DNA of 64,000 nt. Origin: Cognatishimia activa (GTDB taxonomy: Bacteria > Pseudomonadota > Alphaproteobacteria > Rhodobacterales > Rhodobacteraceae). The stretch lies in assembly GCF_026016445.1 (NCBI RefSeq), contig NZ_CP096147.1, positions 1,462,501 through 1,526,500 on the forward strand, written 5' to 3'. The position numbers and the translations under genes are program-made. The notes beneath the pieces are model-generated. The model saw only the letters and a program-made list of their open reading frames with translations, did no database searches and was not told the DNA's origin. Positions within the stretch are counted from its first letter, which is position 1; each line of letters begins with the position of its first letter. Below, one piece after another: positions 13,878-34,791 of this stretch.

Positions 13878-15236
13878 ATGTCTAAGATCTCTCGTTTCAA
13901 AGCAGCACTGTCCTCTGCGCTCCTTCTTGCGCTCACATCCCTGCCCGTTTCAGCAATCGCGCAAACCAACCACGCCGTCGAGCAATTCGGCACGCCTCCC
14001 CAATCCCCGACAGGATCGCTTTCTGGGGAATTAGAAACGGCCATTCAAGTTGCCTTCATCGACAGCATGCAAGATGGCACCTGGGGCGAGGCGCAAAACG
14101 TCGCGCTGCATACAATCACAAACTCAGGCGATCCCCGCATCGCATGGATCATTTCTGACCTTCTACGCTTTGCAGGCAGTGCGCAGCTCAACCAAGCCCT
14201 TGCCAATTCCGCCGCTGCTCTGCTGGGCATATCCCCCCCACGCCGCAACCATTGGGGCGTCATCACCGACCACCTCATCGCCTATGACATCCCCGCCCCG
14301 CCCGACTACCTGAAAGCCAAACGCGCGATCTTCACCACGGTTGTCCCCGGCTGGGACAAGATCTTCGTCAAGGGTGACATCGACTGGCGGCATGTCTCCT
14401 GGGGAGGTGTGCTGATCGACGACCGCCCATTCGACAGAACCGACGATCCCTGCAACTGCATTCCAGCTGCTGACAATCCCGAAGTTCAAACAGCGAACGA
14501 AGCCACTTGGCTGAAAGACAGCGACATTGTCTTTGGCGTCGAAGTGAACGGCGAATACCGCGCCTATCCCCGCCAAATCATGGAAGTGCGCGAGATGGTC
14601 AACGACACCCTGGGCGGCCGCGACCTCGGCATCCCATACTGCACACTATGCGGCGCAGCGCAGGCTTATTTCACCGACGTCAAAGGCATCAACCGCCCGG
14701 TCCTGCGCACCTCAGGCCTGCTGATCCGATCAAACAAAGTCATGTATGACATCACCAGCGGCTCGGTCTTTGACACCTTCAAAGGCACCGCCGTCACAGG
14801 CCGTTTGGCCCGCAAAGGCATCCAGCTGGAACAAGCCAACGTCATCACCACCGAATGGGGGGAATGGAAAAAAGCCCACCCGGAAACCACTGTTTTGGTT
14901 GAAGAACTGGCCCTGGGCCGCAATTTCGACTTCCGCAACAACCGCGATGCCGGCGGCCCGATCTTCCCAGTCGGAGATATCGACCCCCGCCTGCCCGTGC
15001 ATGAAGACATCATCGGAGTGATCACCGCCTCCGGCAAACCGATTGCCTTCCAACGCAGCAAGGCTTTCTTGGCGCTAAAACGCGGCGAATCCATCTCGGT
15101 CGAAAACGTCAACCTCGTCATCGACGCAGGTGGCGTGAAAGCCGTAGACGCCAGCGGAGCCCCACTCGGGAGCCACCAAGCGTTCTGGTTTGCCTGGTCG
15201 CAGTTTTACCCAGAGACTGAATTGTGGGGTGGGTGA
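13878..15236 (+). CDS. secreted DUF3179 domain protein
   Basis: 452 residues with a clear signal peptide (KAALSSALLLALTSLPVSAIA followed by QTNHA). The DUF3179 body includes IPADNPEVQTANEATWLKDSDIVFGVEVNGEYRAYPRQIM, then VNDTLGGRDLGIPYCTLCGAAQAYF and ending NFDFRNNRDAGGPIF. The CTLC pair is conserved in the family. Its biochemical role is not established. It is transcribed away from the ankyrin gene and followed by an AT-rich stretch. No operon partner is apparent. Confidence 0.85.
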   Translation: MSKISRFKAALSSALLLALTSLPVSAIAQTNHAVEQFGTPPQSPTGSLSGELETAIQVAFIDSMQDGTWGEAQNVALHTITNSGDPRIAWIISDLLRFAGSAQLNQALANSAAALLGISPPRRNHWGVITDHLIAYDIPAPPDYLKAKRAIFTTVVPGWDKIFVKGDIDWRHVSWGGVLIDDRPFDRTDDPCNCIPAADNPEVQTANEATWLKDSDIVFGVEVNGEYRAYPRQIMEVREMVNDTLGGRDLGIPYCTLCGAAQAYFTDVKGINRPVLRTSGLLIRSNKVMYDITSGSVFDTFKGTAVTGRLARKGIQLEQANVITTEWGEWKKAHPETTVLVEELALGRNFDFRNNRDAGGPIFPVGDIDPRLPVHEDIIGVITASGKPIAFQRSKAFLALKRGESISVENVNLVIDAGGVKAVDASGAPLGSHQAFWFAWSQFYPETELWGG

Positions 15237-15437: not shown

Positions 15438-16277
15438 ATGCCGTTTTCCGCAACAGTTTATAACGTCCTTATCGCGTCACCATCCGATGTTCCAAACGAA
15501 AGAAAGGCAATAGCTCAAGCATTGCAAGACTGGAATTCTTTGAATGCCAAGGATGAAGGAAAGGTACTACTTCCTGTCATGTGGGAAACCCACAGTGCAC
15601 CAGCAATGGGCGAACGACCTCAAGGTCTGATCAATAATCAAGTCGTACGCGGATGTGATCTTCTTGTCGGAGCATTTTGGACTAGGTTTGGTTCACCAAC
15701 TGGTGTTGAAGAAAGCGGTACAGTTGAAGAAATTAAGTGGTTTCTGAACAATAAGAAACCCACGATGCTCTATTTCTCTAAAGCTCAGGTGGATTTGGAT
15801 GAAGTCGATATTGACCAATATCAGAAACTAAAAGATTTTAAAAAATCTATCCGAGATAAGGGCATACAAGAAAACTACCATGGGTGCGATGAACTTCGAC
15901 AGAAGCTCTTACGGCATTTGACAATCGTTATGCGCGAGATGAACACTGGGCCAAGCTTAGACAAACAAGCTGTTCAGGCAGTGAAAGCGTCCAGTCGGGC
16001 AGAAGAACATCATTCTACCTCGAATAGCCAACCAACTGGCGAAAATAGTTCCGCGAACGCGACCAAGAATAACATTACTCTAGTAGAGTATTCCGCTAAG
16101 GCATTCATAATTCGGGGTAATGTAATTCAGTTCAAGGACGAATTGAAAAAGCAAGGCGGTAAATGGATTACTTGTAGAGACAAATCTAAGGCATGGATGT
16201 TCTCAAAACGGCACACAAAGAGTGTTGCGAAAATCCTGAACATTAAGCCTATATTGGTCGCTATTGAAGAGGCTTAA
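15438..16277 (+). CDS. DUF4062 protein with additional C-terminal module, candidate defence gene
   Basis: 279 residues. Residues 1-165 match the DUF4062 pattern: YNVLIASPSDVPNERKAIAQ, LPVMWETHSAPAMGERPQGLIN, CDLLVGAFWTRFGSPTG, SGTVEEIKWF and KPTMLYFS. This Rossmann-like domain is found next to NTPases and effector domains. A Ser/Asn-rich linker (about 170-212) follows, then a second module with LVEYSAKAFIIRGN, FKDELKKQGGKWITC and KAWMFSKRHTKSV. That G-x-K-D-x-LK-x-x-GGKW ... W-x-FSK pattern resembles a short domain seen at the ends of some DNA-associated proteins; I cannot name it. The gene is visibly more AT-rich than its neighbours and stands alone, suggesting horizontal acquisition. Confidence 0.75.
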   Translation: MPFSATVYNVLIASPSDVPNERKAIAQALQDWNSLNAKDEGKVLLPVMWETHSAPAMGERPQGLINNQVVRGCDLLVGAFWTRFGSPTGVEESGTVEEIKWFLNNKKPTMLYFSKAQVDLDEVDIDQYQKLKDFKKSIRDKGIQENYHGCDELRQKLLRHLTIVMREMNTGPSLDKQAVQAVKASSRAEEHHSTSNSQPTGENSSANATKNNITLVEYSAKAFIIRGNVIQFKDELKKQGGKWITCRDKSKAWMFSKRHTKSVAKILNIKPILVAIEEA

Positions 16278-17571: not shown

Positions 17572-18828
17572 TTAGACCTTCCCGAAAAGCACCGAGGCGT
17601 TGGTCCCGCCAAAGCCAAAGGAGTTGGACAGCGCCACGTCGATCTTGCGCTCGACCTTTTTGTTCGGTGCCAGATCAACCTTGGTCTCAACCGCTGGGTT
17701 GTCGAGGTTGATGGTTGGCGGCGCAACCTGGTCACGGATCGCGAGGATCGAGAAGATCGCCTCAATCGCGCCAGCCGCGCCCAACAGGTGGCCGGTCATA
17801 GATTTGGTGGAGGACATGGTGACATTCGCCGCAGCCTCACCCATCATGCGCTCCACCGCGCCCAGCTCGATGCTGTCGGCCATGGTGGATGTGCCATGTG
17901 CGTTGATATAGTCGATGTCCGCTGGCTCTTTGCCCGCGTCTTTCAGAGCGGCGCGCATGGAACGCTCACCGCCCTCACCATCTTCAGACGGCGCTGTGAT
18001 GTGGTATGCATCGCCAGACAGGCCATAGCCCAGAACTTCCGCGTAAATCTTCGCACCACGTGCCACGGCGTGATCATAGTCTTCCAGCACAACAACACCC
18101 GCGCCTTCGCCCATCACGAAACCATCCCGGTCTTCATCATACGGACGGGACGCCGCCTGTGGGTCATCCGCACGTTTGGTCGACAGCGCCTTACAGGCGT
18201 TAAAGCCCGCAATACCAATCTCGGAAATCGCCGCCTCAGCACCGCCTGCAATCATTACATCCGCGTCGCCGTTTTTGATCAGACGGCTCGCATCGCCAAT
18301 CGCATGCGCACCTGTAGAGCAAGCAGTAACAACCGCGTGGTTCGGGCCTTTAAAGCCATAGCGGATCGACACCTGACCGGAGATCAGGTTGATCAGCGCA
18401 CCTGGGATAAAGAACGGAGAGACACGACGTGGGCCGCGCTCTTTGATCAGGATCGCAGTTTCGGCAATCGAGTTCAGACCACCGATGCCAGACCCGATCA
18501 TCACGCCAGTGCGCAGACGGTCTTCTTCGCCCTCAGGGGTCCAGCCAGCATCCTGCACAGCCATCTCAGCCGCCGCGATACCGTAAAGGATAAAGTCATC
18601 GACCTTACGGCGTTCCTTTGGCGCCATCCAATCGTCGGCATTGAACGTCCCATCGCTGCCATCGCCCAAAGGCACTTCGCAGGCGTATTTGGTTGTGACG
18701 TTCTCGGCATCAAACCGAGTGATCGGCCCCGCCCCGGATTTACCCTCCAGAATACGAGCCCAGCTTTCCTCAACTCCGGATGCCAATGGGGTCACCAGAC
18801 CCAGACCTGTAATGACGACACGACGCAT
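17572..18828 (-). CDS. fabF: beta-ketoacyl-ACP synthase II (FabF)
   Basis: 418 residues beginning MRRVVITGLGLVTPLASGVEE. The Cys-His-His active site is seen as VVTACSTGAHA (Cys), INAHGTSTMADS (His) and KSMTGHLLGAAG (His); the C-terminal NSFGFGGTNASVLF is conserved. It extends acyl-ACP in type II fatty acid synthesis. Normally fabF follows acpP directly, but here about 3 kb of other genes separates them. Its leader (to about 18890) is duplicated upstream of the neighbouring HisA-like gene. Confidence 0.97.
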   Translation of the reverse strand: MRRVVITGLGLVTPLASGVEESWARILEGKSGAGPITRFDAENVTTKYACEVPLGDGSDGTFNADDWMAPKERRKVDDFILYGIAAAEMAVQDAGWTPEGEEDRLRTGVMIGSGIGGLNSIAETAILIKERGPRRVSPFFIPGALINLISGQVSIRYGFKGPNHAVVTACSTGAHAIGDASRLIKNGDADVMIAGGAEAAISEIGIAGFNACKALSTKRADDPQAASRPYDEDRDGFVMGEGAGVVVLEDYDHAVARGAKIYAEVLGYGLSGDAYHITAPSEDGEGGERSMRAALKDAGKEPADIDYINAHGTSTMADSIELGAVERMMGEAAANVTMSSTKSMTGHLLGAAGAIEAIFSILAIRDQVAPPTINLDNPAVETKVDLAPNKKVERKIDVALSNSFGFGGTNASVLFGKV

Positions 18829-18885
18829 AGTGCTGCCCTTTCCTCAATTCGTTGAATGCTCTTACCAAGGCTTTGCTATTGGGGG
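18823..18885 (-). repeat. fabF leader, copy A of a direct repeat
   Basis: The fabF leader, from codons 1-2 outwards, is nearly identical to a second copy at 19877-19939. Over about 40 nt from the start codon outwards there is a single mismatch, then the match continues at lower identity in gapless alignment, including CTTGCCCC. It carries the fabF ribosome site (GAGGAAAGGG). TTGCTAT and ATAGCAA at 18873-18879 and 18892-18898 could also pair. Confidence 0.85.
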
Positions 18886-18962
18886 CAAGACATAGCAAGA
18901 CATTCAGCGGACTGTCACTGAACAAAGCACCTATGCTGGTGAATTTTCGCTGAAATCGCGCC

Positions 18963-19709
18963 TTACTGAAAATGCGCCTTGGGTTCCGGCGTCGCCTGCG
19001 CCAGCGCCAATGCCTCTTCCAGTTCTACGTCCTTGGCAAAAAGAGCCCGCCCCACAAGGGTCCCGCTGATGTTTGACACATATTTCAAGCGCGAGACATC
19101 ATCGGCTGTATTTACAGTACCGCGCGCGATCACCGGATGTTTCGTCGAGGCAGCAAGGCCAGAGATCACACTTAGATGCCCCTCCTGATCATCGCCAATA
19201 TCAGCATCAATATCGGTCACAATCACACCGGCCAATGGCACATCATCATAGGATTTCAGGAAATCCTCCGGCACCATGGCGCCTGCGTTGCGCCAGCCCT
19301 CGGTCATCAACTTGCCCTGAAAAATATCAACCGCCAGCACAATCTGATCCGGATGGCGTATGGCAAGCTCTCGCACGATCTGCGGCGCCTGCACGGCCAA
19401 AGTCCCGATGACAACGCGCGCCGCACCTTTGTCGATCAGATATTCCGCACGATCTGCGGTGCGCACCCCGCCCCCGATTTGAATGGCAGCACTGGTCGTG
19501 GTGATCATTTCTTCGATCAGCGCATCATTGCTGCCCTCGCCTGCAACGGCGTCCAGATCGGTCACATGTATCCAGTCCGCACCCTGCGCGGCAAACCCCT
19601 GCACCGTCTCCAGCGGGTCAACATGCCAGATCGAGGCCTCCTCCAGCCGTCCGCGCTGCAGGGACACGCATTTGCCATTTTGCAATTCGACGGTGGGGTA
19701 AATGATCAT
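18963..19709 (-). CDS. divergent HisA-family (betaalpha)8 barrel protein
   Basis: 248 residues from MIIYPTVELQNGKCVSL, preceded by AGGAGG. The fold is that of HisA (ProFAR isomerase): QIGGGVRTADRAEYLIDKGAARVVIGT, VLAVDIFQGKLMTEGWRN and VIVTDIDAD. Two functional positions differ from genuine HisA. The first catalytic Asp (normally PAIDL) is Glu8, and the phosphate-gripping SGG near residue 196 is ARGT. The second catalytic Asp (Asp128) and the GGGVR phosphate site are kept. Substrate may therefore differ from ProFAR. No other his genes are near, so this is a paralogue rather than the pathway enzyme. It is placed between two copies of the fabF leader. Confidence 0.8.
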   Translation of the reverse strand: MIIYPTVELQNGKCVSLQRGRLEEASIWHVDPLETVQGFAAQGADWIHVTDLDAVAGEGSNDALIEEMITTTSAAIQIGGGVRTADRAEYLIDKGAARVVIGTLAVQAPQIVRELAIRHPDQIVLAVDIFQGKLMTEGWRNAGAMVPEDFLKSYDDVPLAGVIVTDIDADIGDDQEGHLSVISGLAASTKHPVIARGTVNTADDVSRLKYVSNISGTLVGRALFAKDVELEEALALAQATPEPKAHFQ

Positions 19710-20019
19710 GGGGTCCTCCTGAGACAGTCTGCGGCTATGACGGGCCACAGAATTATCTTGCAATCTCAGATCGAAATCAAACGGCACCAAATCGGCGTGT
19801 CTGGGTCAAAAGGCGACCTATTTGGAGAGATTTGAGAAGATCGCCACGCGGATGGAAAACGCTCGAATAGGAAAAGACGCATAGCGCTGCCCTTTCCTCA
19901 ATTCGTTGAATGCTCATACCTTGGGTTGGGTATGAGGGGCAAGTCTATGTGCCCCACTTGAGGAGTTTCAGCAAAGATTTTGCCATTGCAGCGCCTCTAA
20001 GGCCGGGTGACCCTCTGTT
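19710..20019 (-). other. intergenic region holding the second fabF-type leader
   Basis: This 310-bp gap lies between the SDR stop and the HisA-like start. It contains copy B of the fabF leader (19877-19939), ending with an ATG at 19882 and the same first codons ATG CGT as fabF. A 38-codon open frame then runs to a stop at 19766. The frame (MRLFLFERFPSAW...) matches nothing I recognise and is probably a leftover of the duplication. CATACC/GGTATG at 19915-19934 can form a hairpin. Confidence 0.7.
19877..19939 (-). repeat. fabF leader, copy B of a direct repeat
   Basis: Near-identical to the true fabF leader at 18823-18885, same orientation, including the ribosome site and the first codons. The pair brackets the HisA-like gene, so homologous recombination between copies could delete it. 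The copies differ in the outer part, yet each can form a small hairpin at a similar place. Confidence 0.85.
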
Positions 20020-20763
20020 TCAGCGCATAATACGTTCTGCGATGGCCGGGGATAGTCGGTTCAAAATCCGTAAGGTTTTAGCCTTCTCGACCCAGACTTC
20101 GGCGCGCTCGCGTTCTAGCCCTGCCAGAACCTCGTTGGCGGCCTGCGCAGCTGTGATTTTACCTGACCCACGCCCGGCAGTCATATCCGTTTCAACCAGC
20201 GCCATAATGGCCTCGCAGACATGAATATGCGGTGCGGAAGATTGACATTGATACCGCAGCGCCTTGGTAAAGGACCGTAGCGCAGCCTTGGTGCCGCAAT
20301 AGGTTGGCGAAGCTGCTTTTGGCGCAAGGGCAAGTCCCGAACCGATATTCACAATCGCTGAGGCCTTGTGGACTCGCAAAATGGGCAGAAAGCCAATCGT
20401 CAGGGCAACCAAAGCGGAAAGGTTCAAATCGATTTCGCGGCGCGCCAGCTCGATGAGCCTCGCATTGTCTTCGCTGAAAACATCCATTTCGAATTGCACG
20501 GCAGCGTTGTTTATCAAGACATTGATGTCAGGATGGACCGTCGCCACTGTCTTCAAAAGCGCGTCCACCTCCCGGCTTTGAGAGAGATCTGCCTGATAGA
20601 CCGCAACACGATCTGGATAGGCGACCTTCAGGGCCTCCAAACTATCCAGAGAGCGCCCAACGGCCACAATAGAAGCGCCTTTCTCGATCAGCTGCTTTGA
20701 CAATTCCAGCCCGATGCCCCGCGCTCCGCCGGTGATCAAGATTTTGCTTGCGTTCAGGTTCAT
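20020..20763 (-). CDS. short-chain dehydrogenase/reductase, DltE-like
   Basis: 247 residues. The NAD(P)-binding motif is ITGGARGIGLELSKQL, then INNAAVQFE, SAIVNIGSGLA with the catalytic Ser region, and YCGTKAALRSF with the YxxxK pair. The classical SDR active site is complete. It is coupled to the upstream darcynin-like gene (ATGA overlap) and lies divergent to a TetR regulator, which probably controls both. The substrate is unknown; resemblance is closest to DltE/YbbO-type oxidoreductases. Confidence 0.85.
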   Translation of the reverse strand: MNLNASKILITGGARGIGLELSKQLIEKGASIVAVGRSLDSLEALKVAYPDRVAVYQADLSQSREVDALLKTVATVHPDINVLINNAAVQFEMDVFSEDNARLIELARREIDLNLSALVALTIGFLPILRVHKASAIVNIGSGLALAPKAASPTYCGTKAALRSFTKALRYQCQSSAPHIHVCEAIMALVETDMTAGRGSGKITAAQAANEVLAGLERERAEVWVEKAKTLRILNRLSPAIAERIMR

Positions 20764-21177: not shown

Positions 21178-21768
21178 ATGTCAGCGCCCATAAATCCCAG
21201 AAAAGAACCAAAACAGGCGCGGTCCAAAGCCACGTTTGAGGCCATCCTTGAGGCCTCTGCTCGCATTTTGGAAACGGGTGGGCTTGAAAATTTCAACACA
21301 AATCGCGTGGCTGAGGTCGCTGGGGTCAGCATCGGAACGCTCTATCAATACTTCCCGTCCAAACAGGCCATTCTGACAGAGATCATTCGTCAGAAACGCA
21401 GCTTGCTATTATCGGACCTTCGGTCCGCGACTGCCATGCAAGCCGAAGAGCGCTTTGAAATCACCTTGGATAAGCTGCTGTGGGCCGCGATCCGACATCA
21501 ACTGCGCTGGCCCAAACTGGCGCAGACCCTGGAATATGCAGAGGCCTTCCTACCGCTCGAGACGGAAACCTCCGAATTAAACCGGGACATTCTGAATGTA
21601 GTGTCGGACTTTCTCATTCACACGCAACATCCCAACCCAGAGCAAACGGCCCAAGACCTGATTGCAGCTCTGCGCGGGATGATTGATGCAGCAGGTCTGG
21701 CAGGAGAAACCGATCAACAATCGCTTTTCATGCGATGTCAAAAACTGGCGCTGGGGTATTTGACTTAA
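21178..21768 (+). CDS. TetR/AcrR family transcriptional regulator
   Basis: 196 residues. The N-terminal helix-turn-helix is standard: KATFEAILEASARILETGGLENFNTNRVAEVAGVSIGTLYQYFPSKQAILTEII. The C-terminal ligand domain is unassigned. Divergent arrangement with the darcynin-SDR pair and the short shared promoter region (21099-21177) suggest local repression of that pair and of itself. The ligand is unknown. The gene is convergent with acpP. Confidence 0.88.
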   Translation: MSAPINPRKEPKQARSKATFEAILEASARILETGGLENFNTNRVAEVAGVSIGTLYQYFPSKQAILTEIIRQKRSLLLSDLRSATAMQAEERFEITLDKLLWAAIRHQLRWPKLAQTLEYAEAFLPLETETSELNRDILNVVSDFLIHTQHPNPEQTAQDLIAALRGMIDAAGLAGETDQQSLFMRCQKLALGYLT

Positions 21769-21779
21769 CTCCTGTCCAA

Positions 21780-21808
21780 ACAAAAAAACCCCCGCCGAAG
21801 CGAGGGTT
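21780..21808 (-). terminator. intrinsic terminator of acpP
   Basis: On the minus strand ACCCTCGC-TTCG-GCGGGGGT (21807-21788) is followed by a run of seven T. The UUCG tetraloop and U-tract make a textbook terminator. On the plus strand no T-run follows, so it serves acpP rather than tetR. Confidence 0.9.
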
Positions 21809-21833
21809 CTTCCGAATTGATCTCTGACGAAGC

Positions 21834-22067
21834 TTAGGAAGCTTCGGAGATGAATTTCACTGCGTCGCCGAAAGACTGGATGGTCTCTGCTGCGTCGTCA
21901 GGGATTTCGATGCCGAACTCTTCTTCGAAAGCCATAACCAGCTCTACGGTGTCCAGAGAGTCTGCGCCCAGATCGTCGATGAAGGAAGCGCCTTCAACAA
22001 CTTTGTCTTCTTCAACACCCAGGTGTTCTACAACGATCTTTTTTACGCGGTCTGCGACGTCGCTCAT
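21834..22067 (-). CDS. acpP: acyl carrier protein
   Basis: 77 residues, acidic, with the phosphopantetheine attachment Ser in [23 protein letters not shown]. It carries acyl chains in fatty acid synthesis and supplies the acyl-homoserine lactone synthase and lipid A enzymes. It lies after fabG with a 233-bp gap that probably holds its own promoter, as is usual for this highly expressed gene. fabF no longer follows it directly. Confidence 0.97.
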
Positions 22068-22300
22068 GTCAATTCCTCATTCGTACTGGCCGCAATGGCC
22101 TTTGGTCTTCCGCTCAGCGGATAATCATTTGCCCGTATGGGCGGCTCTTGTTCCGGCTCCCCCGGATACCCGGAAAGCCAGACGGCTCACCCGGAAACTG
22201 CGCCGCCTGTAGCATATGATTCCTATTAGGCAAACGCTTTCGCACTGTAATTCCTGAAAGGCTGCTATGAGGTTTTCGCCCCATCTCAGCCCGTCAGCGC

Positions 22301-23038
22301 TTACAACATGGCCATGCCACCGTTCACATGCAAGGTGGTGCCTGTCACATAGCCCGCTTCATCGCTGGCCAGATAGAGAACCGCCGCTGCGATTTCAGCT
22401 GGCGTGCCCATGCGGTTGCTTGGGATTTGCTTGTTGATGGCTTCTTTTTGCTCATCGTTCAGCTTTTCGGTCATCGCAGTGGCGATAAAGCCCGGAGCAA
22501 CGGCATTTGCGGTGATGCCACGGCTTGCGACTTCGTAGGCAATCGACTTGGTCATGCCGACCATACCTGCCTTAGAGGCCGCATAGTTGACCTGTCCCGG
22601 GTTGCCTGTCGCGCCGACGATAGAGCTGATGTTGATGATCCGGCCCCAACGCGCTTTCATCATTGGGCGCATGACCGCACGGCAGAGACGCATCGCGGAT
22701 GTGAGGTTCACATCAATGACCTGCTGCCATTCTTCATCCGACATACGCATGAAAATCTGGTCTTTGGTGATGCCTGCGTTGTTCACAAGGATATCAAGGC
22801 TGCCCATGACTTCGATGGCCTGTTTTGGCAGTTCTTTGACGGCTTCTGCGTCACCCAAGTTGCATGGCAAAACAAAAGCGCGCTCGCCCAGTTCTGCGGC
22901 CAGCGCTTCAAGCGGCTCAACACGCGTGCCGGAAAGGCCGACATTTGCGCCCGCTGCGTGCAACGCTTTGGCGATTTCGCCGCCGATGCCACCGGATGCA
23001 CCGGTTACGAGGGCGGATTTACCTGTTAGATCAAACAT
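22301..23038 (-). CDS. fabG: 3-oxoacyl-ACP reductase FabG
   Basis: 245 residues. Conserved elements are VTGASGGIGGEIAKAL (NADPH site), LVNNAGITKDQIF, NISSIVGATGNPGQVNYAASKAGMVGMTKS (Ser and YxxxK) and the C-terminal YVTGTTLHVNGGMAML. It reduces 3-oxoacyl-ACP. It is placed 30 bp after fabD and in front of acpP, as in most proteobacteria. Confidence 0.97.
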   Translation of the reverse strand: MFDLTGKSALVTGASGGIGGEIAKALHAAGANVGLSGTRVEPLEALAAELGERAFVLPCNLGDAEAVKELPKQAIEVMGSLDILVNNAGITKDQIFMRMSDEEWQQVIDVNLTSAMRLCRAVMRPMMKARWGRIINISSIVGATGNPGQVNYAASKAGMVGMTKSIAYEVASRGITANAVAPGFIATAMTEKLNDEQKEAINKQIPSNRMGTPAEIAAAVLYLASDEAGYVTGTTLHVNGGMAML

Positions 23039-24178: not shown

Positions 24179-25381
24179 ATGGCGCTCACAAACACCCACA
24201 AGAGTTACGGCGGCATCGCCAAGGTCTTTCACTGGATGACAGCGCTGCTGATCCTAACGGCCTTTCCACTGGGCATCATCGCCCAGCAGCTTCCTTTTGA
24301 AACAAATGATCAACTCGCTCTAAAAGCTACTGTGTTTTCTGCTCATAAAACGATCGGCGTACTGGCCTTCTTCACAGCTTTAATGCGCATCCTCTGGGCC
24401 ATAACTCAGAAACGCCCAGGCCTTTTGAACGCCGAAAACAAGCTTGAGGCGACCGCTGCGGAAACAGCGCATTGGTTGCTATATGGATCGATGCTGGCAG
24501 TGCCATTGACCGGATGGGTACACCATGCTGCCACCGAGGGCTTTGCACCGATCTGGCTGCCATTCGGGCAAAGCCTTCCGCTGGTGCCAAAGTCCGAGGC
24601 AGTGGCGAGTGTCACAGCCTCTATGCATTTTCTGCTGATCATTGTGCTTGGACTAACAATCCTTGCCCATATCGGTGGTGCGCTTAAACACTTCGTCATC
24701 GACAAGGATCAAACCCTGCAACGTATGTTGCCTGGGCGCGCCCCTCAGGTGGATGTCGAGCCTCACGTGCGCAGCCTACTGCCCCTCAGCGCAGCACTCG
24801 CAATCTGGGCCATCGCAATGGTCGCAGGCACTTTCGGAGGTGTCTTCAAATCGCATGACGCGCCGATCGCAACCGTGGCCCTGCAAGAGGTCACATCAGA
24901 CTGGCAGGTCACTTCCGGAGACCTCACACTGGAAATCACGCAATTTGGTGCACCCGTTGCTGGATCATTTGGCGAGTGGACCGCGCAGATATCCTTTGAA
25001 GAGCAAGACATTGACGGACGTCACGGTGATGTAACAGTCGAAGTCGCTATTGGCTCATTGTCATTGGGATCAGTCACGCAACAGGCAATGGGCAATGACT
25101 TTTTCAATGTCGCGACCTTTCCAACAGCCACCTTCCAGGCCGACATTCTGTCCGATTCTGATGGCGACAACCAATACATCGCTGAGGGTACGTTGACCCT
25201 AAAAGGAGCCACAGTTCCGGTCACCCTGCCCTTCGTGATGGAAGTTGACCAGAACACTGCAACGATGGAGGGCTCTGTTTCACTGGATCGGCAGGACTTT
25301 GGTATTGGAGCCAATATGCCTGATGAAACCAACCTCGGATTTGGTGTGGATATTAGCGTGGCGCTTCAAGCTCAGCGCTAA
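24179..25381 (+). CDS. cytochrome b561 domain fused to YceI domain
   Basis: 400 residues. The N-terminal half (about 1-180) is a cytochrome b561: KVFHWMTALLILTAFPLG, SAHKTIGVLAFFTALMRILWA, HWLLYGSMLAVPLTGWVHH and HFLLIIVLGLTILAHIGGALKH give four helices and the haem-binding His residues. A further helix (LPLSAALAIWAIAMVAGTFGG) leads to a periplasmic YceI domain (about 235-400): QISFEEQDIDGRHGDVTVEV, FFNVATFPTATFQADI and LDRQDFGIGANM. YceI proteins bind isoprenoid quinones, so the fusion may move electrons between quinone and periplasm; that is inference. The start is the ATG where similarity to b561 begins. Confidence 0.88.
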   Translation: MALTNTHKSYGGIAKVFHWMTALLILTAFPLGIIAQQLPFETNDQLALKATVFSAHKTIGVLAFFTALMRILWAITQKRPGLLNAENKLEATAAETAHWLLYGSMLAVPLTGWVHHAATEGFAPIWLPFGQSLPLVPKSEAVASVTASMHFLLIIVLGLTILAHIGGALKHFVIDKDQTLQRMLPGRAPQVDVEPHVRSLLPLSAALAIWAIAMVAGTFGGVFKSHDAPIATVALQEVTSDWQVTSGDLTLEITQFGAPVAGSFGEWTAQISFEEQDIDGRHGDVTVEVAIGSLSLGSVTQQAMGNDFFNVATFPTATFQADILSDSDGDNQYIAEGTLTLKGATVPVTLPFVMEVDQNTATMEGSVSLDRQDFGIGANMPDETNLGFGVDISVALQAQR

Positions 25382-25398
25382 AATTCCCCAAAAGAAGA

Positions 25399-25429
25399 AA
25401 AGCCCGCAGGTCAGAAACCTGCGGGCTTT
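25399..25429. terminator. bidirectional intrinsic terminator
   Basis: A 12-bp stem AAGCCCGCAGGT/ACCTGCGGGCTT with a five-base loop sits between the convergent b561-YceI fusion and YceI genes. Plus strand ends in TTTA and the minus strand in TTTTCTTC, so it may serve both. Confidence 0.85.
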
Positions 25430-25452
25430 ACAGCGTTTAGGTATCAGATTGA

Positions 25453-26037
25453 TCAGCTTGCGCTGCCGTCTGCTTTCATCGCTTCGATCGAGATCATCAC
25501 TGGAACTTCATCGCTGACAAAAGGCGCAAACTGACCAAGATTGAAATCTGAGCGCACCAATGTGGTTGTCGCGTCAAAACCCGCCCAAGGCTTGCCTGCC
25601 AATGGGTGGTCGCCAACTTGGTTGAGTTTTGCATCCAGAACAACGGATTTGGTTACATCGTTCATTGTCAGATCGCCTGTGATCAGCGCGGTGTTTTCAC
25701 CGGTCACTTCAATGCTGGTGGAAACGAAAGTTACTAAATCATCGTCTTCCGCACCAAAGAAGTCGGCTGACATGAAGTGGCCAAAGCGCTCTTCCCAACC
25801 GGTCAGCATGGATTTCACTGGGAATGCCACAGACACAGACGACGACGCCGGATCTTCCTGATCGAACATGATTTCACCGTCAAAACCAGAGAACATGCCG
25901 TAGGTCGTAGAGTAGCCTAGGTGGTTATAAGAAAAGACGATTTGGCTGTGGCTTGCGTCGAGCACATATTTCTCGGCACCTGCGGATGCCATGGATGCTG
26001 CGGCCGCCAGGCCAGCTGCGAGTACGAGAGTTTTCAT
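25453..26037 (-). CDS. periplasmic YceI family protein
   Basis: 194 residues with a signal peptide (MKTLVLAAGLAAAASMASAGA) and a lipocalin-like YceI domain: YVLDASHSQIVFSYNHLGYSTTYGMFSGFDGEI, then VKSMLTGWEERFGHFMSADFF and GDLTMNDVTKSVVLDAKL. Family members bind polyisoprenoid quinones. It is convergent with the b561-YceI fusion, and the pair may work together on a common lipid carrier. Confidence 0.92.
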   Translation of the reverse strand: MKTLVLAAGLAAAASMASAGAEKYVLDASHSQIVFSYNHLGYSTTYGMFSGFDGEIMFDQEDPASSSVSVAFPVKSMLTGWEERFGHFMSADFFGAEDDDLVTFVSTSIEVTGENTALITGDLTMNDVTKSVVLDAKLNQVGDHPLAGKPWAGFDATTTLVRSDFNLGQFAPFVSDEVPVMISIEAMKADGSAS

Positions 26038-33121: not shown

Positions 33122-34456
33122 TTACTCTTCTTCCAGCGCTTCAACAGCTTTCTGCAGATCGTCTTTAGAGACTTCTTTCTCAGAAACTTCTGCCAGTTCA
33201 AAGACATAGTCGACGACTTTGTCTTCAAACAGTGGCGCGCGCAGCTGCTGCTGCATCTGTGCGTTTTGCTGAACAAACTCAAAGAACTGACGCTCTTGAC
33301 CAGGGTACTGGCGCGCCTGGTTCATGATCGCTTGGGTCATTTCAGCGTCGGTCACTTCGACCTCTGCTTTCTGGCCCAGCTCTGCAAGCAAGAGGCCTAG
33401 ACGCACGCGGCGCTCTGCCAGTTTGTTGTGCTCTTCAGTTGGCTCGATCTTATCGTGATCGTGGCCTTCCACTTCTGGGTTCTCTTCATGCCACAGCTGA
33501 TGCGCGATTTGACCTGCTTCAGCTTCCACCAAGGAAGGTGGCAGATCGAAGGAGACTTTCTCGTCAAGCGCATCCAGAAGCGCACGCTTCTGAACCTGAC
33601 GGGAGGCACCGGCGTATTCTGCTTCCAGACGCTCAGCAACTTGGCCCTTCAAGCCAGCCAGATCTTCTGCGCCGAATTTCTTCGCCAGCTCGTCATCGAT
33701 CTCTGCCGCAACAGGTTCTTTGACTTCTTTGATCACACAAGCAAACACAGCTTCTTTGCCCGCGAGATGCTCTGCTTGATAGTCTTCAGGGAAGGAAACA
33801 GTAACGTCCTTCTCTTCTTCTACCTTCACACCAACCAGCTGCTCTTCAAAGCCCGGGATGAATTGACCGGATCCCAGAACCAGAGGGAAGTCGTCGCCTG
33901 CGCCGCCGTCAAATGCTTCGCCGTCGATTTTACCAACGAAATCCATGACAACCTGGTCGCCGTCTTTCGCTTTGGAACCTTTGCGACGCGCTTTGAAGTC
34001 CTGTGCTGTTTCAGCAAGGTTTGCCAGCGCTTCATCAACGTCCGCATCAGCTGCTTTCACAACCATTTTCTCCAGAGAGATAGACTTCAGGTCTACTTCT
34101 GGAATTTCTGGCAGAGCTTCGTAAGACATCTCGACGTTCACGTCGTCGCCTTCTTTCCACTCTTCGCCGTTTTTCATTTCGACTTTTGGCTGCAGTGCAG
34201 GACGGTCGCCGGACTCTTCAAAGTGCTTGTTCATCGCACCGTCTACGGCTTCTTGCATTGCTTCACCCAGCAGGCGCTGACCGAATTGCTTTTTCAGCAG
34301 AGCCATAGGCACTTTGCCTTTGCGGAAACCTTTCATTTCGATTTCCGGCTGTGCTTCAACCAGCTTTTCATTGACTTTTTCGTCCAGCTCAGCGGCGGTG
34401 ACAACGATATCGTAACCGCGCTTCAGGCCTTCATTCAGGGTCTCGGTGACCTGCAT
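33122..34456 (-). CDS. tig: trigger factor, ribosome-associated chaperone
   Basis: 444 residues. The N-terminal ribosome-binding segment contains [17 protein letters not shown] with the signature GFRxGKxP. A PPIase domain ([44 protein letters not shown]) and a helical C-domain follow. It binds nascent chains at the ribosomal exit. Long open frames on the opposite strand are shadows of its regular codon usage. Confidence 0.97.
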
Positions 34457-34791
34457 TGTGGCATCCTTCTTAAAGTGGGGCGCATGTTTTCGCCGCAGCC
34501 TAATAAATCAGTCGCCCTAATAGGGCTTCAAAGCCATCGGTGCAAGGCGAATGTGCTGGGTTTCTTCGCCTCAAAAGCAGCGCAAGCGAGGGATCGCTGG
34601 CTTAATTTAAAGGCGTTGCGTTCAGAAGCCCTTCAAATGAACCAAGAGCGCCTAGAAATTCAGAGAAATGTATAGGCTGCACACAACTTAAACTTGCCAG
34701 AATTCACACAACAGGATACTGCGAAAACAATTCCATTTCTGAACATACGCATAGTTCAATAACTGATTTTAGTAAGGCATTGGAGACCGGC
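34457..34791. other. intergenic region between divergent tig and lipoprotein genes
   Basis: 335 bp without a gene. On the minus strand TTGCAC (34545-34540), a 17-bp spacer and TATTAG (34522-34517) form a plausible tig promoter; a small palindrome GCCCTA-A-TAGGGC (34514-34526) overlaps the -10. The part near 34680-34791, upstream of the lipoprotein gene, is AT-rich with no Fur box that I can see. Confidence 0.55.

Follow-up and report, generated by a model that had tools for sequence, protein, structure and literature searches.

Results

Within a 64,000-nucleotide stretch of the Cognatishimia activa genome (the window), the promoter and start of the fatty-acid gene fabF occur twice, once at fabF itself (copy 1) and once farther toward acpP (copy 2), with a gene for a divergent HisA-family protein, here called hisA2, lying between the copies. 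Copy 2 is intact and promoter-like, it is nearer to the fabF leaders of other species than to copy 1, and relics of a border gene lie in the acpP-fabF gap elsewhere in the genus. From this pattern we infer an event and a direction for it: with a probability of about 60%, copy 2 marks the border of a segment joined at an insertion hotspot by recombination that used homology at one end and was illegitimate at the other.

The two copies form a direct repeat of 73 nt on the same strand (18817-18889 and 19871-19943; 85% identity, spacing 1054 nt), and a genome-wide BLAST search pairs them over 68 nt at 87% identity (E 2.2e-17). Copy 1, the fabF promoter-leader, occupies 18822..18889 on the minus strand, with a -35 box TTGCCC at 18888-18883, an 18-nt spacer, a -10 box TAAGAG at 18864-18859, a ribosome site and the fabF ATG at 18828. 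Copy 2, a second fabF-type promoter-leader at 19876..19943 on the minus strand, has TTGCCC at 19942-19937, again an 18-nt spacer, TATGAG at 19918-19913, a ribosome site at 19899-19890 and an ATG at 19882. The similarity fades downstream of ATGCGTC, and copy 2 is a partial second border sequence that adjoins inserted DNA and ends abruptly, as is expected of a product of homology-facilitated illegitimate recombination (HFIR). From its ATG runs a putative 38-codon open frame (19766..19882, minus strand) that bears no sign of being a gene. A junction zone (19797..19875, minus strand), which we delimit partly by interpretation, separates the end of the fabF-like sequence from an upstream element of hisA2's own. 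An earlier note on this DNA had described the same-orientation recurrence of the fabF leader, the HisA-like gene between the copies, the 38-codon frame opened by the second ATG and a separation of acpP and fabF by about 3 kb (3005 nt), and all of these are borne out. It had also raised the chance that copy 2 belongs to an unrelated intergenic repeat family. A dispersed repeat family is ruled out, since the genome has two copies only: over its full 3.21 Mb, BLAST finds no third copy at E<=1 and a 30-mer search allowing up to three mismatches returns only the two places.

Direct repeats that flank a gene could also represent the target-site duplication left, or the attachment site used, by a mobile element that entered at the start of fabF, an origin that we regard as very improbable. 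A target duplication would be expected to be shorter and less diverged than this repeat, with its 68-73 nt and 85-87% identity, the relics in related genomes have different ends, a third copy is lacking from the genome, and among the profiled proteins, whether encoded between the copies or by the cassette that adjoins copy 2, there is no integrase or transposase.

The repeated stretch is a promoter followed by a short 5' untranslated region (UTR) with its ribosome site and by the opening codons, because 45 of 54 distinct fabF leaders (copy 1 of the window and those of other genomes) fit the pattern TTGC-N17/18-TA, with a spacer of 18 nt in 40 and 17 nt in five, against a mean of 0.6 and a maximum of 3 among letter shuffles of the leaders. 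Nine of the 54 are off the pattern. The end of the -10 box lies 30-38 nt from the ATG, and the leaders thus have the constant hexamer spacing and fixed distance to the gene of a housekeeping-type promoter. Copy 2 retains the -35 and -10 boxes, their spacing, the ribosome site and the ATG. The proposal that the leader is a promoter or an RNA element stands in its first half, a promoter with a ribosome site. The second half was rejected for want of a match at the Rfam gathering score, at which a tRNA is the sole match in the window and none falls at the leader; at E<=10 the region 18700-20100 yields only a CRISPR-repeat model (21.1 bits, with 39 needed). Conservation near codon 1, previously read as a hint of selection on the leader itself, is accounted for because the promoter and ribosome site are conserved, with no Rfam family behind it at the gathering score. 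The promoter spacer of copy 2 (19911-19943) also holds a perfect 8-bp inverted repeat, where copy 1 has one of 4 bp. A spacer dyad as operator was considered and rejected: the mean stem is 4.3 over 44 leaders and 3.9 with shuffled spacers, though some leaders have strong dyads.

We compared copy 2 with the leaders of other Cognatishimia genomes, which carry the handles G000 (the window genome) to G008. Over 68 nt it is 94% identical to the leader of G003, 93% to that of G007, 87% to copy 1 and 85% to that of G005, and when the columns are bootstrapped 5000 times, G003 or G007 comes out as nearest to it in 89% of replicates and copy 1 in 7%. Copy 1 and G005 have AAGCCTTGG in the promoter spacer in common. 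The suggestion that the repeat arose by a tandem or target-duplicating event survives in part: recombination or insertion is likely, but a simple and recent copying of the resident leader in tandem is not supported, as copy 2, judged on few sites, resembles leaders from other species more closely than it does copy 1. A tract beside the cassette, from the acpP 3' region to the 3' part of fabG (21776..22700, no strand applying), is more G007- than G005-like, with 62 sites favouring G007 and 33 favouring G005 in 22068-22700 (Fisher p 3e-5 against fabF/yceG), whereas fabF (98 versus 80 sites) and yceG (129 versus 81) favour G005 over G007. As a possible imported flank this tract is only suggestive. 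A mosaic profile along fabF-yceG alone was set aside, as it has no clear breakpoint. The window genome and G005, taken as C. activa CECT 5113, have DNA identities of 88% and 82% in two stretches and of 66-98% in 300-nt windows; judged by these figures they may be different species.

The acpP-fabF gap is a recurrent insertion site in Cognatishimia. Its borders in the window are acpP on the left (21834..22067, minus strand) and fabF on the right (17572..18828, minus strand). The two genes lie 190 nt apart in G004 and 231 nt apart in G008 but 977 to 17430 nt apart in the other seven of the nine Cognatishimia genomes, so the statement that they are normally neighbours holds for the former two and not for the rest. 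From 60 loci we searched the 46 that had both borders in the available DNA, 31 of them with hisA2 (window included), for second copies of acpP or fabF. A second fabF leader is present in the window genome alone (1/46 intervals), a 15-nt match in L096 at E 0.001 being left uncounted. Relics of the acpP tail are found within the gap in G005 (179 nt, 91%), G007 (44 nt, 100%) and G003 (72 nt, 79%), all Cognatishimia; those of G003 and G007 have the same offset and probably derive from one shared event. The cargo is varied. The insert of G005, about 14 kb long, holds sulfur-oxidation-type genes (flavocytochrome c sulfide dehydrogenase, cytochrome c, metallophosphoesterase), a CobW gene and hisA2, together with transporter genes recognised by eye only; higBA is present in the gaps of G007 and G003 (families were run on the G007 proteins), and G002 has a PilZ-domain gene there. 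The G005 gap as a whole measures 17.4 kb (L147, 875-18539) and has an AAA ATPase gene beyond the acpP-tail relic. In L062 (6300-8620) and L063 (5000-6290) the higBA toxin-antitoxin pair stands between acpP and fabF and is followed by the acpP-tail relic.

On the minus strand of the window the order is fabD, fabG, acpP, a three-gene cassette, copy 2, hisA2, copy 1, fabF and yceG. The cassette, left unmentioned by the earlier note, consists of a divergent TetR-family regulator gene (21178..21768, plus strand), a darcynin-family gene (PF17074; 20760..21098, minus strand) and a short-chain dehydrogenase (SDR) gene (20020..20763, minus strand). It is rare: darcynin is found at E<=1e-10 in 10 of 394 genomes of the family. 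At the nine other darcynin loci the order is TetR-darcynin-SDR in seven and TetR-darcynin in two, and neither acpP nor fabF occurs in the 1.5-kb flanks of any of the nine. TetR-darcynin-SDR is a unit of its own, inserted at the window locus, and among the 10 loci it adjoins acpP only in the window. Near the fab locus, 15438-16277 encodes a 279-aa protein that scores 24.1 bits for DUF4062, just under the Pfam cut-off of 24.7.

hisA2 (18963..19709, minus strand) encodes a protein of 248 aa. It resembles HisA in being a whole-length PF00977 homologue and differs from it in two respects. With TIGR00007 it scores 188.7 bits, short of the 228.95 required, against 270.6 for the genome's canonical HisA, and it has glutamate in place of aspartate at position 8 (E8 in 37/40 hisA2 proteins, that of the window included; D8 in 19/19 canonical HisA). 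Aspartate 8 of HisA has a catalytic role. A C-terminal extension with PEPxAxF is largely conserved in the hisA2 family. At E<=1e-50 hisA2 is found in 96 of the 394 genomes, and we sampled 40 loci, comprising the window, 11 stretches and 28 loci of the 96 carriers. Its address between acpP and fabF is old in the family, because acpP lies upstream at 34 of these loci and fabF downstream at 33, with both on the same strand at 30; three loci (L067, L070, L101) have neither gene in the DNA at hand. Gain or loss within the genus is possible: four of the nine Cognatishimia genomes (G000, G001, G005, G006) carry hisA2, in G006 in the compact order acpP-hisA2-fabF, and G003 and G007 are without it. A reading of the repeat pair as the mark of hisA2's first arrival is not supported, since each of the 30 other hisA2-bearing acpP-fabF intervals has a single leader and none has a second. 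In a tree of 51 rows, 15 of them drawn from the 120 proteins listed, the hisA2 sequences of G000 and G005 belong to a single, well-supported six-member clade, just as the fabF genes of both are sisters, and a foreign hisA2 was for this reason not supported; the G001/G006 branch is long and weakly placed (86/52). Searches of the open-access literature that covered HisA paralogues as well as hisA genes close to acpP or fabF yielded no such report in titles and abstract openings.

The hisA2 ATG lies about 170 nt downstream of copy 2, whose boxes are intact. Read-through into hisA2 is plausible from this arrangement, and copy 2 may still start transcripts that enter the gene. It may be an added promoter for hisA2 rather than the sole one, because hisA2 keeps two candidate elements of its own, both downstream of copy 2. 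The element GCCGATTT (19789..19796, minus strand; at -87 of hisA2) is present upstream of 11 of the 40 hisA2 genes, where shuffles give 0.07, the motif having been chosen by eye on the same sequences. The promoter-like site TTGATT-17-GATAAT (19752..19780, minus strand) is a consensus match only, in a scanned region where five such sites were found against 1.8 expected.

These elements bear on the idea that copy 2 was captured as a promoter and kept by selection, placing hisA2 under a fabF-type promoter and coupling its dose to fatty-acid synthesis. The boxes, spacing, ribosome site and ATG of copy 2 are intact while acpP-tail relics have decayed to 79% in G003 and 91% in G005, as selection for function would predict. 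We nevertheless find this account quite unlikely. The acpP tail in G007 is 100% identical over 44 nt, so that relics can stay intact without function; hisA2 has its own upstream element and promoter-like site; and the arrangement appears in no other of the 46 intervals.

Discussion

Taken together, our results favor a scenario in which copy 2 would be the start of a foreign or older fabF allele, comprising its promoter, its 5' UTR and two to three codons of its start. A related bacterium would have supplied chromosomal DNA that entered by homologous recombination on one side and a non-homologous join on the other. In the version we prefer, the donor would be a relative lacking hisA2, with a C. 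maritima-like (G007-type) leader and the order acpP-[TetR-darcynin-SDR]-leader-fabF; its DNA would have been anchored in acpP/fabG, and its fabF joined at codon 3 to the upstream region of the resident hisA2. In a mirror version, which accounts for the data almost equally well, hisA2-leader-fabF would have fabF as its anchor and be joined at codon 3 to the resident fabF. Since hisA2 would then have arrived with copy 1, this version would partly rescue the idea of the earlier note that the repeat accompanies the arrival of the gene. Either version of one-sided recombination would explain why the likeness ends just past the start codon and why copy 1 is not straightforwardly the closest sequence to copy 2.

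Several observations weigh against this scenario. The supposed donor order occurs in none of the 394 genomes searched by darcynin, and the hisA2 genes of G000 and G005, lying in one clade, give no sign of a foreign hisA2. The test of the acpP-fabG tract was chosen after looking (post hoc), further G007-like tracts lie elsewhere in the 27 kb profiled (14201-15100, 25301-25900, 34001-34600), the fabF start with copy 1 (18701-19000) is likewise G007-like, and fabG taken whole is almost evenly split (44 versus 51 sites). Only 68 nt carry the kinship signal, in which G003 ranks ahead of copy 1 in 92% of bootstraps. Copy 1, for its part, has copy 2 as its nearest sequence in 78% of bootstraps, and CAACG is found in copy 2, copy 1 and G005 where G003 and G007 have CAAAG.

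The last two points are also what would be expected had the resident fabF leader been duplicated in tandem where it stood, either by itself or so that hisA2 came to lie between the copies, and had the spacer of copy 1 changed later, leaving copy 2 closer in appearance to the ancestral leader; AAGCCTTGG in the spacers of copy 1 and G005 could then have arisen afterwards in the lineage that they share. We consider this a real but minority possibility. It does not sit well with the nearer likeness of copy 2 to G003 and G007 than to copy 1, with the cassette directly adjoining copy 2, or with a second leader in only one of 46 intervals, as an old duplication needs losses in G005 and others.

One-sided recombination at a hotspot is an ordinary mechanism, and what we describe is probably a well-preserved recombination scar. 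It shows in readable form how accessory genes come to lie between two core genes, no integrase being seen in the profiled set, and how a promoter can be copied as a by-product of insertion. A broader proposal, that the gap is a scar-writing hotspot in which one-sided recombination traps incoming genes and each time leaves an acpP tail or a fabF promoter-start, and that the scar here is a working promoter tying hisA2, whose HisA-fold product has an altered active-site residue and whose place in the fatty-acid locus is old, to fatty-acid synthesis, seems to us unlikely as a whole. The most interesting point is the HisA-like family itself, an uncharacterised family that may have a role in fatty-acid metabolism.

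After HFIR, part of a border gene would remain in a second copy, as found here; the window case differs in that it is inferred from its scar, the donor order not having been found. Hotspots that lack recognisable mobile elements have been attributed to recombination at flanking core genes (PMC5635113), and the acpP-fabF gap shares with them the variable accessory genes that lie between two core genes and are exchanged through them. That paper invokes double homologous recombination, a process that on its own would presumably leave no such scar. A further parallel is found in the effector-immunity arrays of the type VI secretion system (T6SS) of Vibrio cholerae, in which successive insertions at one spot keep parts of the displaced genes and for which, in the portions of the report at hand, the authors propose an HFIR-like mechanism while calling HFIR rare (PMC5361080). 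Both systems combine repeated insertion at one spot with displaced gene parts left behind. They differ in what borders the site, which in Cognatishimia is a pair of fatty-acid genes, and in the relics, which in the arrays are effector ends and immunity genes (PMC5361080) and in Cognatishimia a fabF promoter-start or an acpP tail.
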